Below are positions 39,078 to 43,197 of a stretch of 64,000 nucleotides of DNA, in pieces. The position numbers and the translations under genes are program-made. Each line of letters starts with the position of its first letter. Position 1 is the stretch's first letter. Under the pieces are notes generated by a model. It did not search any database. It had not been told where the DNA came from and was given only the letters and a program-made list of their open reading frames with translations. Source of the DNA: Candidatus Gallimonas merdae (GTDB lineage: Bacteria; Bacillota; Clostridia; Christensenellales; Borkfalkiaceae); contig CAJFRT010000006.1 of assembly GCA_904419525.1 (NCBI GenBank), positions 1 through 64,000 on the forward strand, read 5' to 3'.

Positions 39078-39106
39078 ATTATACACGCTTTGCGTGTATT
39101 TTTCAA
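39078..39106 (-). promoter_or_regulatory. sigma-A promoter of the uvrC operon, predicted leaderless
   Basis: Minus strand TTGAAA (about 39101-39106), 17-bp spacer, TATAAT (39078-39083), then 6 nt to the ATG at 39071. Confidence 0.85.
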
Positions 39107-39131
39107 GCGATTGGAAAAAATATTCCGAAAA

Positions 39132-39171
39132 GCCGCGGGCGGGCACGGAGAATTCCGTGCCCGCCCGCGGC
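39132..39171 (-). terminator. terminator after arsR
   Basis: An 18-bp GC-rich stem (GCCGCGGGCGGGCACGGA and complement) 12 bp after the arsR stop, followed on the minus strand by CTTTTCGG. It insulates the copper operon from uvrC. Confidence 0.85.
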
Positions 39172-39182
39172 GTCCGTCCGGC

Positions 39183-39518
39183 TCAGTAGCCGAGAAATTC
39201 CACACCTTTGAGGAGAACGTCGTTCACGATCTCATTGGAAAGGGAGTAAAAAATGATCTTGCCGTGACGGTCGGTGCGCACCATTCCCGCATCTTTCAGA
39301 AACCTGAGCTGATGGCTGACGGTCGTCTGATTGATGCCGAGCACACGCGAAATGTCCGTCACGCACATCTCGGAGATCGCGAGCGCCGAAAGAATACGCA
39401 GGCGCGTATTGTCCGCGAAAATCGAAAAGAAGCGCACGAGCGCCGTGAGCACTTCCCCCTCCGGAACGTATCCCTCGATCATATCCTGCGTGCGTCTGTC
39501 CAGCAAAAGCGTCTGCAT
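39183..39518 (-). CDS. ArsR/SmtB-family transcriptional regulator
   Basis: A 111-residue winged-helix repressor. The family core is FSIFADNTRLRILSALA, then CVTDISRVLGINQTTVSHQLRFLKDAGMV (recognition helix near residues 58-80) and the wing RTDRHGKIIFYSL. The ELCVCD-like alpha3 metal site reads EMCVTD, with only one Cys, so which metal or signal it senses is unclear. ATG 39518 has CGGAGGCGG upstream. Last gene of the csoR-copA unit, after a hairpin that may dampen its expression. Confidence 0.88.
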   Translation of the reverse strand: MQTLLLDRRTQDMIEGYVPEGEVLTALVRFFSIFADNTRLRILSALAISEMCVTDISRVLGINQTTVSHQLRFLKDAGMVRTDRHGKIIFYSLSNEIVNDVLLKGVEFLGY

Positions 39519-39607
39519 AAACCGCCTCCGTTTTTGTTTCCAGCATATCATCTGCACGGGTGCGCACGCATGGAAGATGTGACGAAATCCGGACAATTTT
39601 GTCGCAA

Positions 39608-39638
39608 ACGCCGCGTCGGAAATTTCCGGCGCGGCGTC
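39608..39638 (-). terminator. hairpin between copA and arsR
   Basis: A stem ACGCCGCG...CGCGGCGT with inner pairing lies directly after the copA stop. The T-run is short, so it could be a leaky terminator or an mRNA-stability element. Confidence 0.5.
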
Positions 39639-39641
39639 CGC

Positions 39642-39851
39642 TCATCTGATGTCCGTCACTTCATAGCCCGCTTCTTTCACGGCCGAAGTCAGAACTTCGT
39701 CCGCAACGGGGCCTTCGAGCGTGACGACGGCGCGCTTCTTTTTGAGATCGACCTCCGCCGTCTTAACGCCCTCCACCGCCTGCAAAGCGTCCGTCACGTG
39801 TCTGACGCAGTGCTGGCACATCATGCCTTCCACTTTGAGTTCGCGTTTCAT
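39642..39851 (-). CDS. possible free CopZ copper chaperone from an internal start in copA
   Basis: The final 69 codons of copA, from ATG 39851 (MKRELKVEGMMCQHC), are a complete HMA copper chaperone with the CxxC copper site. AAGGAGG lies 7 nt before this ATG at 39859-39865, as good as any start in the window. A separate 69-residue CopZ could therefore be made in addition to the fused form. This is an inference from the start signals; alternatively the site is a relic of a recent gene fusion. Confidence 0.5.
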   Translation of the reverse strand: MKRELKVEGMMCQHCVRHVTDALQAVEGVKTAEVDLKKKRAVVTLEGPVADEVLTSAVKEAGYEVTDIR

Positions 39852-42080
39852 GCTGTCTCCTCCTTTCTGTGATGTTTGTTTCGACGGATTTTTTCTGCCG
39901 CGCATGAAGCCCGTCAGGCGCAGCGCATTGCCCACCACGAAGAGCGAAGAACAGCTCATCGCGGCGGCGGCGATCATGGGATTGAGCGTGACGCCCGCCC
40001 ATGCGAAGCACCCCGCTGCAAGCGGAATGCAGATGCAGTTATAGAAGAACGCCCAGAACAAATTCTGTTTGATGATGCGCATCGTCCTGCGGGCGAGTGC
40101 GAACGCGCGGGGCGCGGCGGCAAGGTCGCCGCCCATCAGAACGATGTCGGCGCTTTCGATCGCAACGTCCGTTCCGTTTCCCATCGCGATCCCCACGTCC
40201 GCCTCTTTCAGGGCGGGGGAATCGTTGATCCCGTCGCCGATCATCGCCACGCCCTTGCGGACATGCTTTCCCCCGTCCGCGTTGCGCTTCTTGTGCTCGA
40301 TCACGTACGCGAGCTTATCCTGCGGGAGCACTTCGGCGTATACCATGTCCGCGGGGATCCCCGCATTTTCGGCGATCGACCGCGCGCACGCGGCATTGTC
40401 GCCCGTGAGCATGTACGTCTCCATGTCCAGGCCGCGAAGCTGCGCAACGGCCTCCGCGCTGCCCGCTTTGAGCGTATCGGCAAGGGCGAACATGGCCAGC
40501 ACGCGCGCGCCGTCCGCAAGAAAGAGCACCGTCTTGCCCTGCGCGGAAAGGGCGTCCGCCTTCTCCTTCTGCGCCGCAAAGTCCACGCCGCGTGCCGCAA
40601 GCATCTTCTCGTTCCCCAGGAAGTATTCCCGTCCGTGCACCGTTCCGCGCGCGCCCTGGCCGACAACGTATTCGACATCTTCCGCCGCGTCGCCCCCGCC
40701 GCAAAAATCCACAATGCACTGCGCCAACGGGTGATTCAGCTTGTTTTCGAGCGCGTAGGAAACCGACTTCGCCGCGCGTTCATCGCCGTAGGCCTCAAAG
40801 AACACGACTGACGGCTTTCCTTCGGTGACGGTCGCCGTCTTGTCGAGCAGAACGGTCTTTACGTCCGCCGCCCGCTGAAGGGATTCCGCACTCTTGATCA
40901 GGACGCCGAGCGAGGCGCCCCGTCCGGTCGCCGCCATGACCGCGACGGGCGTTGCAAGCCCGAGCGCGCACGGGCAGGAAATGACGATGACGCTCACGCC
41001 GAAATTGAACGCCGCCTGCACGTCCCGGGTCGCAAAAAGCCAGGCGAAAAACGTGACGAGCGCGATGCCGAGCACCACGGGAACGAACACGGCGGAAATT
41101 TTGTCCGCCAGTTTCTGTATGGGCGCCTTGCTTGCCCCCGCCTCGCGCACCATGCGGATAATGGAGGAGAGCATCGTGTTTTCGCCCACTTTTTCCGCCC
41201 GGATCTTCAGATAGCCGCCCGTCACAAGGGACGCGCTCATGGCGCGGCTCCCCTGCGAAAGTTCCACGGGCAGGCTCTCGCCCGTCACCGCCGACTGATC
41301 GGCAAAGGCGTGGCCTTCGGTCACCGTTCCGTCCACGGCAATGGATTCCCCCTGCCGGACGATCAGGATATCCCCTTCGGCGACCTCGGAAAGCGGAAGG
41401 GTGAGCTGATTTCCGCCGCGTTCCACCGTGACCGTATCGGGCGCCAGCGAGAGCAGTTTTTCGATCTCCCGCCCCGTGCGGCGCTTGCTCTTGTCCTCCA
41501 GCCATTTGCCGAGCGTGACAAGCGTGACGATCATGGCTGCGGACTCAAAGAAGAGCGTCGGCTCCTCAGGCGCCAGGATCGCCATGACCAGACTGTAGAT
41601 GAACGAGACGGCCGCGCCCAGCGTGACCAGCGTATCCATGTTCGGCACGCGCTTCCAGGCGGCGCGCACGCCGCTGACAAAGAACCGGCCGTTGATGAGC
41701 AGGATCGCAAGCGTCAGCCCGACCTGAAACCCGTAGTTGAGCCAGCCGTGCGGCACGGGCAGGCCCATCATATGCCCCATCGCAAAATACATTTCGGGAA
41801 TCAGCAGGATCAGCGAAAGCAGAAAGCGCACGCCGAGCGTAAAGCGTTTTTTCTTTTTTTGGGGAACTTTTCCGTAATCGAACGCCCCGTAACCGAGCGC
41901 GGTCACCGCCTTTTTGATGCCGGCGTCCGTTACGACGGATTCGTCAAAGGTGACGTCCATGCTCTCCCCCATCAGGGAGACGGCACAGCTCTCCACCCCT
42001 TTCATCTTTCCGACCGTGCGCTCGATGCCGGACGAACACGCCGCGCACGTCATGCCGGTGATCGAATATTTCTTTTCCAT
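39642..42080 (-). CDS. copA: copper-exporting P1B-type ATPase with N- and C-terminal HMA domains
   Basis: An 812-residue Cu+ efflux ATPase. Residues 1-70 form an HMA domain (GMTCAACSSGIERTV). Then eight membrane helices with CPC (ISCPCALGLATPV, near 395), the actuator TGES, a nucleotide domain (NHPLAQ, GDGINDSPAL). The phosphorylation motif reads DKTATVTEGKP instead of DKTGT, an unusual change. From about 744 a second HMA domain follows (GMMCQHCVRHVTDAL), resembling a whole CopZ chaperone, joined through KQTSQKGGDS. This linker encodes a perfect ribosome site before an in-frame ATG (39851). Ribosome site AAGGAG precedes the main start. Regulated by CsoR from upstream. Confidence 0.95.
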   Translation of the reverse strand: MEKKYSITGMTCAACSSGIERTVGKMKGVESCAVSLMGESMDVTFDESVVTDAGIKKAVTALGYGAFDYGKVPQKKKKRFTLGVRFLLSLILLIPEMYFAMGHMMGLPVPHGWLNYGFQVGLTLAILLINGRFFVSGVRAAWKRVPNMDTLVTLGAAVSFIYSLVMAILAPEEPTLFFESAAMIVTLVTLGKWLEDKSKRRTGREIEKLLSLAPDTVTVERGGNQLTLPLSEVAEGDILIVRQGESIAVDGTVTEGHAFADQSAVTGESLPVELSQGSRAMSASLVTGGYLKIRAEKVGENTMLSSIIRMVREAGASKAPIQKLADKISAVFVPVVLGIALVTFFAWLFATRDVQAAFNFGVSVIVISCPCALGLATPVAVMAATGRGASLGVLIKSAESLQRAADVKTVLLDKTATVTEGKPSVVFFEAYGDERAAKSVSYALENKLNHPLAQCIVDFCGGGDAAEDVEYVVGQGARGTVHGREYFLGNEKMLAARGVDFAAQKEKADALSAQGKTVLFLADGARVLAMFALADTLKAGSAEAVAQLRGLDMETYMLTGDNAACARSIAENAGIPADMVYAEVLPQDKLAYVIEHKKRNADGGKHVRKGVAMIGDGINDSPALKEADVGIAMGNGTDVAIESADIVLMGGDLAAAPRAFALARRTMRIIKQNLFWAFFYNCICIPLAAGCFAWAGVTLNPMIAAAAMSCSSLFVVGNALRLTGFMRGRKNPSKQTSQKGGDSMKRELKVEGMMCQHCVRHVTDALQAVEGVKTAEVDLKKKRAVVTLEGPVADEVLTSAVKEAGYEVTDIR

Positions 42081-42137
42081 AAAAACTCCTTGACATTCCG
42101 GACAGCCGCGCTGCCCGGGAAAAATTCCGGCACGCCA

Positions 42138-42443
42138 TCAGTTCAGTTTTCTGATGAGTTCGACCGTCTCCTTTACGATATCCTTGTCCCCGGCCCTGAT
42201 CTTTTCGGAGACGCACGTGTTCATGTGATCTTCCAGAACGAGATAGCCGAACGCGCGCACCGCGCTCTCGACGGCGGAGACCTGCACGAGTACATCGCCG
42301 CAATAGCGGTTTTCCTCGATCATCTTTTTGATGCCGCTCAGCTGCCCCGCAATGCGGTTCAGACGGTTGACAAGATTCCTGATCTGATCTTCCCCGCGCG
42401 GCGTATCCTTATAATGCTCCCGGCAATGTTCGCAGTCCTGCAT
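42138..42443 (-). CDS. csoR: CsoR-family copper-sensing repressor
   Basis: A 101-residue all-alpha repressor of the CsoR/FrmR family. The NRLNRIAGQLSGIKKMIEENRYC segment (given here as NRLNRIAGQL and MIEENRYCGDVL, residues 26-50) holds the first Cys of the copper site; DHMNTCVSEKI near 75-80 holds the His and second Cys, giving the C-H-C pattern. The N-terminal MQDCEHCREHY adds more potential ligands. ATG 42443 has ACGGAGGAAAGG upstream. It sits before copA and behind a promoter overlapped by CsoR-type boxes, so it should repress its own operon until Cu+ binds. Confidence 0.93.
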   Translation of the reverse strand: MQDCEHCREHYKDTPRGEDQIRNLVNRLNRIAGQLSGIKKMIEENRYCGDVLVQVSAVESAVRAFGYLVLEDHMNTCVSEKIRAGDKDIVKETVELIRKLN

Positions 42444-42461
42444 AACCTTTCCTCCGTAAAT

Positions 42462-42512
42462 TACCCCCATGGGGTATATTGACATTATACCCATATGGGG
42501 TATTCTTGTCAA
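42462..42512 (-). promoter_or_regulatory. copper-operon promoter with two CsoR operator boxes
   Basis: Minus strand TTGACA (42507-42512), 17-bp spacer, TATAAT (42484-42489), perfect consensus. A pseudo-palindrome TACCCCATATGGGTA (42488-42502) fills the spacer and touches the -10 box; a second, TACCCCATGGGGGTA (42462-42476), lies just downstream. Both have the G-tract/A-T centre form of CsoR operators. Confidence 0.88.
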
Positions 42513-42523
42513 GCGTCTGCGCA

Positions 42524-42552
42524 CAAAAAAACGGCGCAGGCGCGCCGTTTTT
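42524..42552 (-). terminator. terminator after the flavin reductase-rubredoxin gene
   Basis: Stem AACGGCGC / GCGCCGTT followed by a run of seven T on the minus strand, about 12 bp after the stop codon. Confidence 0.85.
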
Positions 42553-42564
42553 CAGAATTTTATA

Positions 42565-43197
42565 TCATAATTTTTCAAACCGGGACTTGGGAGCGCCGCA
42601 CACAGGGCATACCCAGTCGTCGGGCAGCTGTTCAAAGGGAACGTCTCCGCTGTATTCATACTTGCAGATCCTGCAGACATACCTGCCGCCGCTCTTTTCC
42701 TCCGCCTGGTAGGTGGGAGCATTCGCCGCGGTCTTTCCCTTGAGCACCTTGTGATAGTAGGCATACGTCATGGGCGTACCCTCCGCAAGAATGTCTGCGT
42801 CCATGACCTCGCCCAGAAACACCGTATGCGTGGATGTCTCCATTTTGTCGATCACCTTACAGGCGAACCAGCACAGGGCGCCGTCCGGCACCGGGAGTTT
42901 CCCGCGAACTTTCCAGGGAAAGTCCGCGAATTTGTCCTTTTCCCTGGACGTGAAGAAGCCGAACTTTCCGATCAGTTTGGGATCGCAGTCCTCGGCGAGC
43001 ACGCAGACGGAAAAATACCCCGTATCCCCCACGCATTTGTTGGTATAGTTGTCATGGTTGAGGGAAACGGCAAGCGTCGCGGGCGAAGACGTGATCTGCA
43101 TCGCGCTGTTGGCGACGCATCCGACCGGACGACCCTCGTCCCAGCTTGTACAAAGATACACGCCGTAGGACAGATGATAAAATGCTTTTTTGTTCAT
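42565..43197 (-). CDS. flavin reductase-rubredoxin fusion (high-molecular-weight rubredoxin type)
   Basis: A 210-residue two-domain redox protein. Residues 1-150 are a flavin reductase-like FMN-binding domain ([27 protein letters not shown]). Residues 168-210 are a rubredoxin: [13 protein letters not shown] and [18 protein letters not shown], giving the four iron-binding Cys. In Moorella the same arrangement (Hrb) passes electrons from NADH to the FprA flavo-diiron protein for NO or O2 removal, so oxidative or nitrosative defence is likely. Ribosome site GGGGG upstream. Stands alone between rpmF and the copper operon. Confidence 0.9.

Follow-up and report, generated by a model that had tools for sequence, protein, structure and literature searches.

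The copA gene of the window, by which is meant here the whole analysed stretch of 64,000 nucleotides, carries at its end a complete copZ frame with a Shine-Dalgarno sequence (SD) and a start codon of its own. Judged from the sequence it is very probable that one mRNA gives both a full-length CopA with a tethered CopZ and, by internal initiation, free CopZ. The original prediction had named a gene of this kind, yielding a fused CopA-CopZ as well as a free chaperone, as one of two possibilities, and the selection acting on the nucleotides of the SD and the start speaks in favour of it.

The copA frame (39642..42080, minus strand) has no stop codon inside and encodes an 812 aa copper ATPase of the P1B-1 type with an HMA domain at each end. 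The N-terminal HMA (about 41889-42068, minus strand; PF00403) has the motif GMTCAAC, and the CopZ-type HMA at the C-terminus, which is the second PF00403 match in CopA, has GMMCQHC. The protein scores 544 bits against TIGR01511 (cut-off 397) and covers positions 4-541 of the 542 in the profile. P1B-1 copper ATPases have a CPC metal site in the membrane, and this site is present in the translation (SCPCALGLATP). The phosphorylation motif DKTGT is near-universal among P-type ATPases; the CopA of the window has DKTAT instead (residues 413-417; 40830-40844, minus strand). DKTAT was found in 131 of 253 loci (genus 87/90, family 35/53, order 9/50, class 0/60), and as a lineage trait it is not taken to exclude a CopA-like pump. 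Directly upstream of copA lies csoR, a gene for a CsoR-family repressor (42138..42443, minus strand; PF02583, 98.8 bits), and downstream on the same strand arsR, a gene for an ArsR-family regulator (39183..39518; PF01022, 66.3 bits); the queries behind these two scores carried one extra codon before the csoR and arsR starts.

The nested copZ frame (39642..39851, minus strand) runs from an ATG in frame with copA (39849..39851, minus strand) to the stop codon shared by the two and encodes 69 aa. It corresponds to residues 744-812 of CopA and matches positions 2-62 of 62 in PF00403, so that the last 69 codons of copA do form a complete HMA, as was originally proposed; the interval given for it then, 39642-39890, takes in most of the linker besides the domain. 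This linker, which joins the last transmembrane helix to CopZ (39852..39908, minus strand), holds the SD AAAGGAGG (39859..39866, minus strand), 7 nt before the internal ATG, and is otherwise very variable among the relatives; an SD followed by an in-frame ATG had been predicted, and this order is present. The junction peptide reads ...RGRKNPSKQTSQKGGDS-MKRELKVEGMMCQHC... in the window CopA. By comparison, the start of copA itself has AAGGAG 5 bases before it. Of the 933 ATGs on the minus strand of the window, 8, the internal one included, are preceded at a suitable spacing by 7 nt or more that match the anti-SD core; chance becomes untenable as an explanation of the window site since the SD and the start are conserved in relatives. 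RNA folding at the internal start is weak, with a mean of -2.2 kcal/mol in 175 folding windows vs -12.5 kcal/mol in 875 around other ATGs; as the GC content also differs (0.34 at internal starts vs 0.56 at other ATGs), the weak folding reflects A-richness and is no separate signal.

The nested domain resembles stand-alone CopZ more than it resembles the other HMA of the same protein. Its CxHC motif is MMCQHC, and the residue before the second Cys is His in 217 of 222 fused C-terminal domains vs 0 of 247 N-terminal domains. The solved free chaperones which match it include 1cpz (a copper chaperone) and 1k0v/2qif (CopZ). Two models were compared, one made from 21 stand-alone CopZ of split relatives, which were chosen with a requirement for H or N and have His in 20 of 21 by construction, the other made from the same 309 N-terminal domains that were scored with it. 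The stand-alone model gave the higher score for 283 of 284 C-terminal domains and for none of the 309 N-terminal ones, and the C-terminal domain of the window scored 92.0 bits with it vs 50.4 bits with the N-terminal-domain model. Against curated models a 71-aa piece scored 80.6 bits with CopZ_AFE_1862 (cut-off 85), 68.4 with CopZ_Eh (95), 57.6 with CopZ_Bs (91) and 62.2 with TIGR00003 (62), i.e. it lies just above the cut-off of a general copper-ion-binding model and below those of three CopZ models, in one case narrowly. By the comparison of the stand-alone and N-terminal-domain models, the C-terminal domain is of the CopZ type and is not a copy of CopA's own N-terminal domain.

The loci of relatives were sampled by taking the best matches automatically and picking the rest by hand from the listings, the hand-picked rows being most of those left for the genus and only a portion of those for family, order and class; none was picked by its SD. 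In the genus a CopA match at E <= 1e-100 was found in 92 of 101 genomes. Among the copA loci of the genus 81 of 90 are fused, and the other 9, which are without a C-terminal CopZ, showed no separate copZ in the 500 nt that follow copA. At the family level 51 loci were fused and 2 were counted as unfused (n=53), but one of the latter (L143) is actually fused with a divergent motif which the motif search missed; it has no proper SD, its one possible start being a GTG 18 codons upstream with an SD match of 4 nt. The order-level loci comprise 47 fused, 1 split and 2 with neither arrangement (n=50), and the class-level ones, which were picked as 40 fused-looking loci and 20 with stops or short matches, comprise 43 fused, 13 split and 4 with neither (n=60). 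The comparison of relatives for a stop codon between the two parts, which had been suggested for this locus, finds the loci read mostly fused, and split in 1/50 at the order level and 13/60 at the class level. Altogether there are 222 fused copA-copZ genes from 41 family codes in one taxonomic class. The other possibility originally considered, that two genes were fused recently when copA lost its stop codon, is ruled out by the fused frame in 81/90 genus loci and in 41 family codes. The window assembly is fragmented into 39 contigs, which could be held in favour of an assembly error masking a stop or a frameshift between two ordinary genes. The probability of this is practically nil: the same fused frame occurs in the assemblies of relatives, in 222 genes, no two of the 253 CopA proteins read are identical, and the idea is thereby refuted. 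A sequencing error at the junction, foreseen in the original prediction, falls with the same observation.

In the split locus at the order level (L185) copZ overlaps the end of copA by 4 bases, and this overlap is one step from fusion. Among 13 genomes without the fused domain that were searched, one has a copZ overlapping the end of copA, the same order-level one (L185/L252). From the HMA stretches of that search 20, a part of the total, were retrieved, and in one of these (L253) the motif search found nothing. A scan of named genomes, in which His is present in all matches by construction of the search, gave 578 confirmed CopZ-type matches. Among the best 80 of these 578, 62 are fused, six of them (L315, L316, L317, L351, L382, L392) assigned by hand on the ground that their frame also encodes the last helix of CopA, and at least three of the 62 (L315-L317) are junctions already in the set of 222. 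The 62 fused genes among the best 80 of 578 belong to Bacillota (53), Actinomycetota (4) and Spirochaetota (3), with two lacking a phylum, one of which is titled SAR324. Eggerthella sinensis DSM 16107, Megasphaera massiliensis and Acetatifactor muris DSM 23669 are cultured carriers of the fused gene.

The internal start is found in nearly all of the fused genes. Taking the best of several candidate starts in each gene, an in-frame start codon lies within 18 codons in 211 of 222, the window included (207 ATG, 4 GTG), and a start with an SD of at least 4 nt in 207/222, at least 5 nt in 196/222 and at least 6 nt in 167/222. By rank, a start with an SD of at least 4 nt occurs in 81/81 fused genes of the genus, 44/51 of the family, 42/47 of the order and 40/43 of the class. 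All fused genes read have an SD of at least 5 nt in 29 of the 41 family codes. When the start was instead fixed at 8 codons before the GM motif, a 5-nt SD at any spacing was found in the preceding 22 nt in 169 of 178 genes. The background is low: other in-frame ATGs of the 222 fused genes have an SD of at least 5 nt in 131 of 4728 cases and of at least 6 nt in 18 of 4728, and for all 253 loci these numbers are 179 and 24 of 5419. The fused genes among the best 80 of 578 matches in named genomes have a start with an SD of at least 4 nt in 62/62 and of at least 5 nt in 57/62. Separate copZ genes have the same signal; their start has an SD of at least 4 nt in 14 of 14 split loci of the class-wide sample, and among the best 80 of 578 matches of the named-genome scan one of 7 split loci (L365) is without such an SD.

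The aligned distance from SD to start is 7-8 nt in 172 of 207 genes, and the linker measures 8-138 codons with a median of 21 (207 fused genes with an SD; helix end mapped by BLAST). In three loci (L043, L053, L054) there is a repeat-like in-frame insertion in the copA linker, with the SD-ATG intact behind it. It has to be considered that the SD-like stretch, which sits after the last transmembrane helix, might slow elongating ribosomes and aid membrane insertion of the last helices with no initiation taking place. This is very unlikely, since the stretch keeps an almost constant distance to the start codon while its distance to the helix varies over 130 codons, and since a start codon would be of no use to a pause site, yet the SD has in most cases gone together with the start. 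Where the start codon is missing, an SD of at least 6 nt remains in 1 of 11 fused genes, and where it is present, in 171 of 211 (Fisher p 1.4e-6, uncorrected for relatedness).

The conservation is not due to the peptide encoded. In a test where the start was chosen without regard to the SD, the glycine positions lying 2-5 codons ahead of the internal ATG used GGA in 121 of 129 cases and GGC in none of the 129, whereas elsewhere in the fused genes GGA makes up 2178 of 12138 (18%) and GGC 5880 of 12138 (48%); further up in the same linkers GGA accounts for 64 of 307. The SD lies in all three codon phases (112, 89 and 6 of 207) and the peptides under it vary (KGD, SED, KEV, KEA), so no single peptide is conserved at the SD. 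It was also considered whether a particular peptide beside the domain is needed for structural reasons; the phase changes together with the glycine codon test rule this out. In the genus the information per alignment column is 2 bits at the start codon and 1.17-1.77 bits over positions -14 to -8, the columns further upstream being A-rich with at most 1.04 bits; outside the genus the peak is 0.74-1.35 bits vs at most 0.46 before -15. Randomising synonymous codons over stretches of nine codons gave a weak result for single genes and counts against the reading (58 of 207 below 0.05, median 0.107, 19 above 0.5); the weakness arises because KG(D/E) peptides already favour AAGGAG. By the glycine codon test and the joint loss of SD and start, the site is under selection at the nucleotide level.

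The distribution of fused, split and absent copZ was placed on a FastTree tree of 256 CopA cores, for which the genus was thinned by chance. The three states require 16 changes, whereas 200 shuffles required 36 on average and never fewer than 32, i.e. the states are clustered on the CopA tree. Seventeen of 21 split genes fall within one clade of 19, which also has one gene without copZ and one separate fusion with an SD (L326, SAR324). Midpoint rooting gives a fused state at the root, but the sample is enriched for fused genes and the root state is therefore unsafe. These data bear on the explanation that the fused protein alone is made. The C-terminal HMA would then give the pump another metal-binding domain, and the SD-ATG would be a relic from a time when copZ was a separate gene. 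The full-length frame is intact as this requires, 15 of the 222 fused genes, and likewise L143, are without an SD or a start, and Archaeoglobus fulgidus CopA, with "two MBDs" in the portion of the source available, is a precedent. A relic would decay, yet an SD of at least 4 nt and a start are found in at least one fused gene of 40 of the 41 family codes despite the variable linkers, the two are mostly lost together, and the states are clustered on the tree to the degree just given. We therefore regard the relic as unlikely. If free CopZ is made by internal initiation, the genes without an SD or a start indicate that the free form is dispensable in some lineages, and the 13 changes in SD presence among fused genes on the tree mean that the losses are scattered.

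A scan of 39100-42700 with the sigma-70 consensus gave two promoter-like sites, both upstream of csoR and one on each strand. The one on the minus strand (42484..42512) is TTGACA-17-TATAAT and agrees with the consensus at 12/12 positions. At the other end a near-perfect hairpin (39604..39641, minus strand) abuts the stop codon shared by copA and copZ; it has only a short T run after it, and the 51-nt stretch holding it has a folding energy of -33 kcal/mol. It is a possible transcript end or terminator, although it is not included in the terminator-like listing of the same 39100-42700 scan. Free CopZ could also be produced from a short mRNA of its own, made by an internal promoter or by RNA processing, with the SD serving that mRNA. 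The SD-ATG would work equally well there, and the title of the 2017 paper by Drees, taken as a title, names differential transcripts for the E. coli chaperone; the sigma-70 consensus scan found no promoter-like site within copA, and we look upon a short mRNA as quite improbable.

With internal initiation on the long mRNA, which is the preferred reading, expression would proceed as follows. A csoR-copA mRNA would be made from the promoter upstream of csoR, its transcription presumably being released when CsoR binds copper, as expected from the family. Ribosomes starting at the copA start would make the 812-residue pump with CopZ tethered at the C-terminus, while others would start at the strong A-rich SD-ATG in the linker and make free CopZ of 69 residues, which would accumulate and carry Cu(I) to the pump. 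When the SD matches of the two starts are compared in 193 pairs, the internal start has the longer one in 143 and the copA start in 23, with 27 ties, which suggests that more carrier than pump would be made; elongating ribosomes may, on the other hand, mask the internal site. It is also rather likely, with somewhat less assurance than the mechanism itself, that the inside of copA is a normal home of copZ across the class and in other phyla, and that one gene has long made a tethered pump and an excess of free chaperone in a ratio given by the two start sites. As the internal start is independent of the copA stop codon, separate and fused copZ would be interchangeable states.

In E. coli the frameshift in copA uses a slippery site and a stimulatory structure after the N-terminal HMA and releases the N-terminal part, i.e. 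that HMA, as a chaperone. This programmed frameshift is reportedly the subject of work by Meydan and by Drees, both from 2017. The available portions of the literature agree that E. coli copA also encodes a copper chaperone produced by frameshifting, and the contrast originally drawn with it is a fair one. Both systems have one gene for the pump and the copper chaperone; here, unlike in E. coli, the CopZ-like domain is C-terminal and would be obtained by an internal start, and the N-terminal HMA is of the CxAC kind (GMTCAAC). If the proposal is true, the nested copZ is convergent with the E. coli frameshift at the opposite end of the gene, and a copper-pump gene can furnish its own chaperone by a second route, independent of the first.

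A parallel in mechanism is SctQ/HrcQ/SsaQ/YscQ, where, in the portion of the source available, an in-frame internal start gives a separate C-terminal protein, and where HrcQa and HrcQb of "Pst" are tabulated as two proteins (PMC8553256). As in SctQ, copA has an in-frame start and an SD before a self-standing C-terminal domain, and the two-protein state of HrcQa/HrcQb, as tabulated there, parallels the split copA/copZ relatives. We take "Pst" to be P. syringae pv. tomato. The systems differ in that SctQ belongs to a secretion-system ring and copA and copZ make a copper pump and its carrier, and in that the short product is demonstrated for SctQ and predicted here. Cas11b is likewise described, in the text accessible, as the C-terminal part released by an in-frame internal start. 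Copper operons with a separate copZ adjoining copA are also described in the accessible parts of the literature; they have the same partners and the same CopZ-type domain, but here there is no stop between the two. The CopA of A. fulgidus has the layout HMA-ATPase-HMA, and the window CopA is like it, the comparison being one of layout alone. The excerpts available give the A. fulgidus CopA two terminal metal-binding domains, and that organism a separate CopZ as well. In full texts under open licences, which leaves most subscription papers aside, no report of copZ nested in copA was found. In-frame internal initiation is already known; what appears to be new is its pairing with CopA and CopZ, and its breadth. 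The nested arrangement occurs often in the sampled class and is found in cultured species as well, and ordinary annotation is expected to give one long CopA and no CopZ. The nested gene is also a natural test of the effect of tethering a chaperone to its pump.

The window genome, which is 92.6% complete, has four HMA domains in a PF00403 search, two of them within CopA. The third is in a small protein near another ATPase (motif DLDCANC) and the fourth in an 85-residue protein with the motif CGMC, so that this search of the 92.6% complete genome gave no CopZ-type HMA besides the nested one. Small stand-alone HMA proteins with CGMC and not CxHC are carried by the window genome (G000:C10:30220-30396; L064), three other members of the genus and one order-level genome (L236, L242, L244, L254). 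Other small stand-alone HMA proteins (L238, L240, L241, L243, L245-L250) have a CCxxCAER-type motif and mostly a KGIF tail, and this type occurs in fused and unfused genomes alike.
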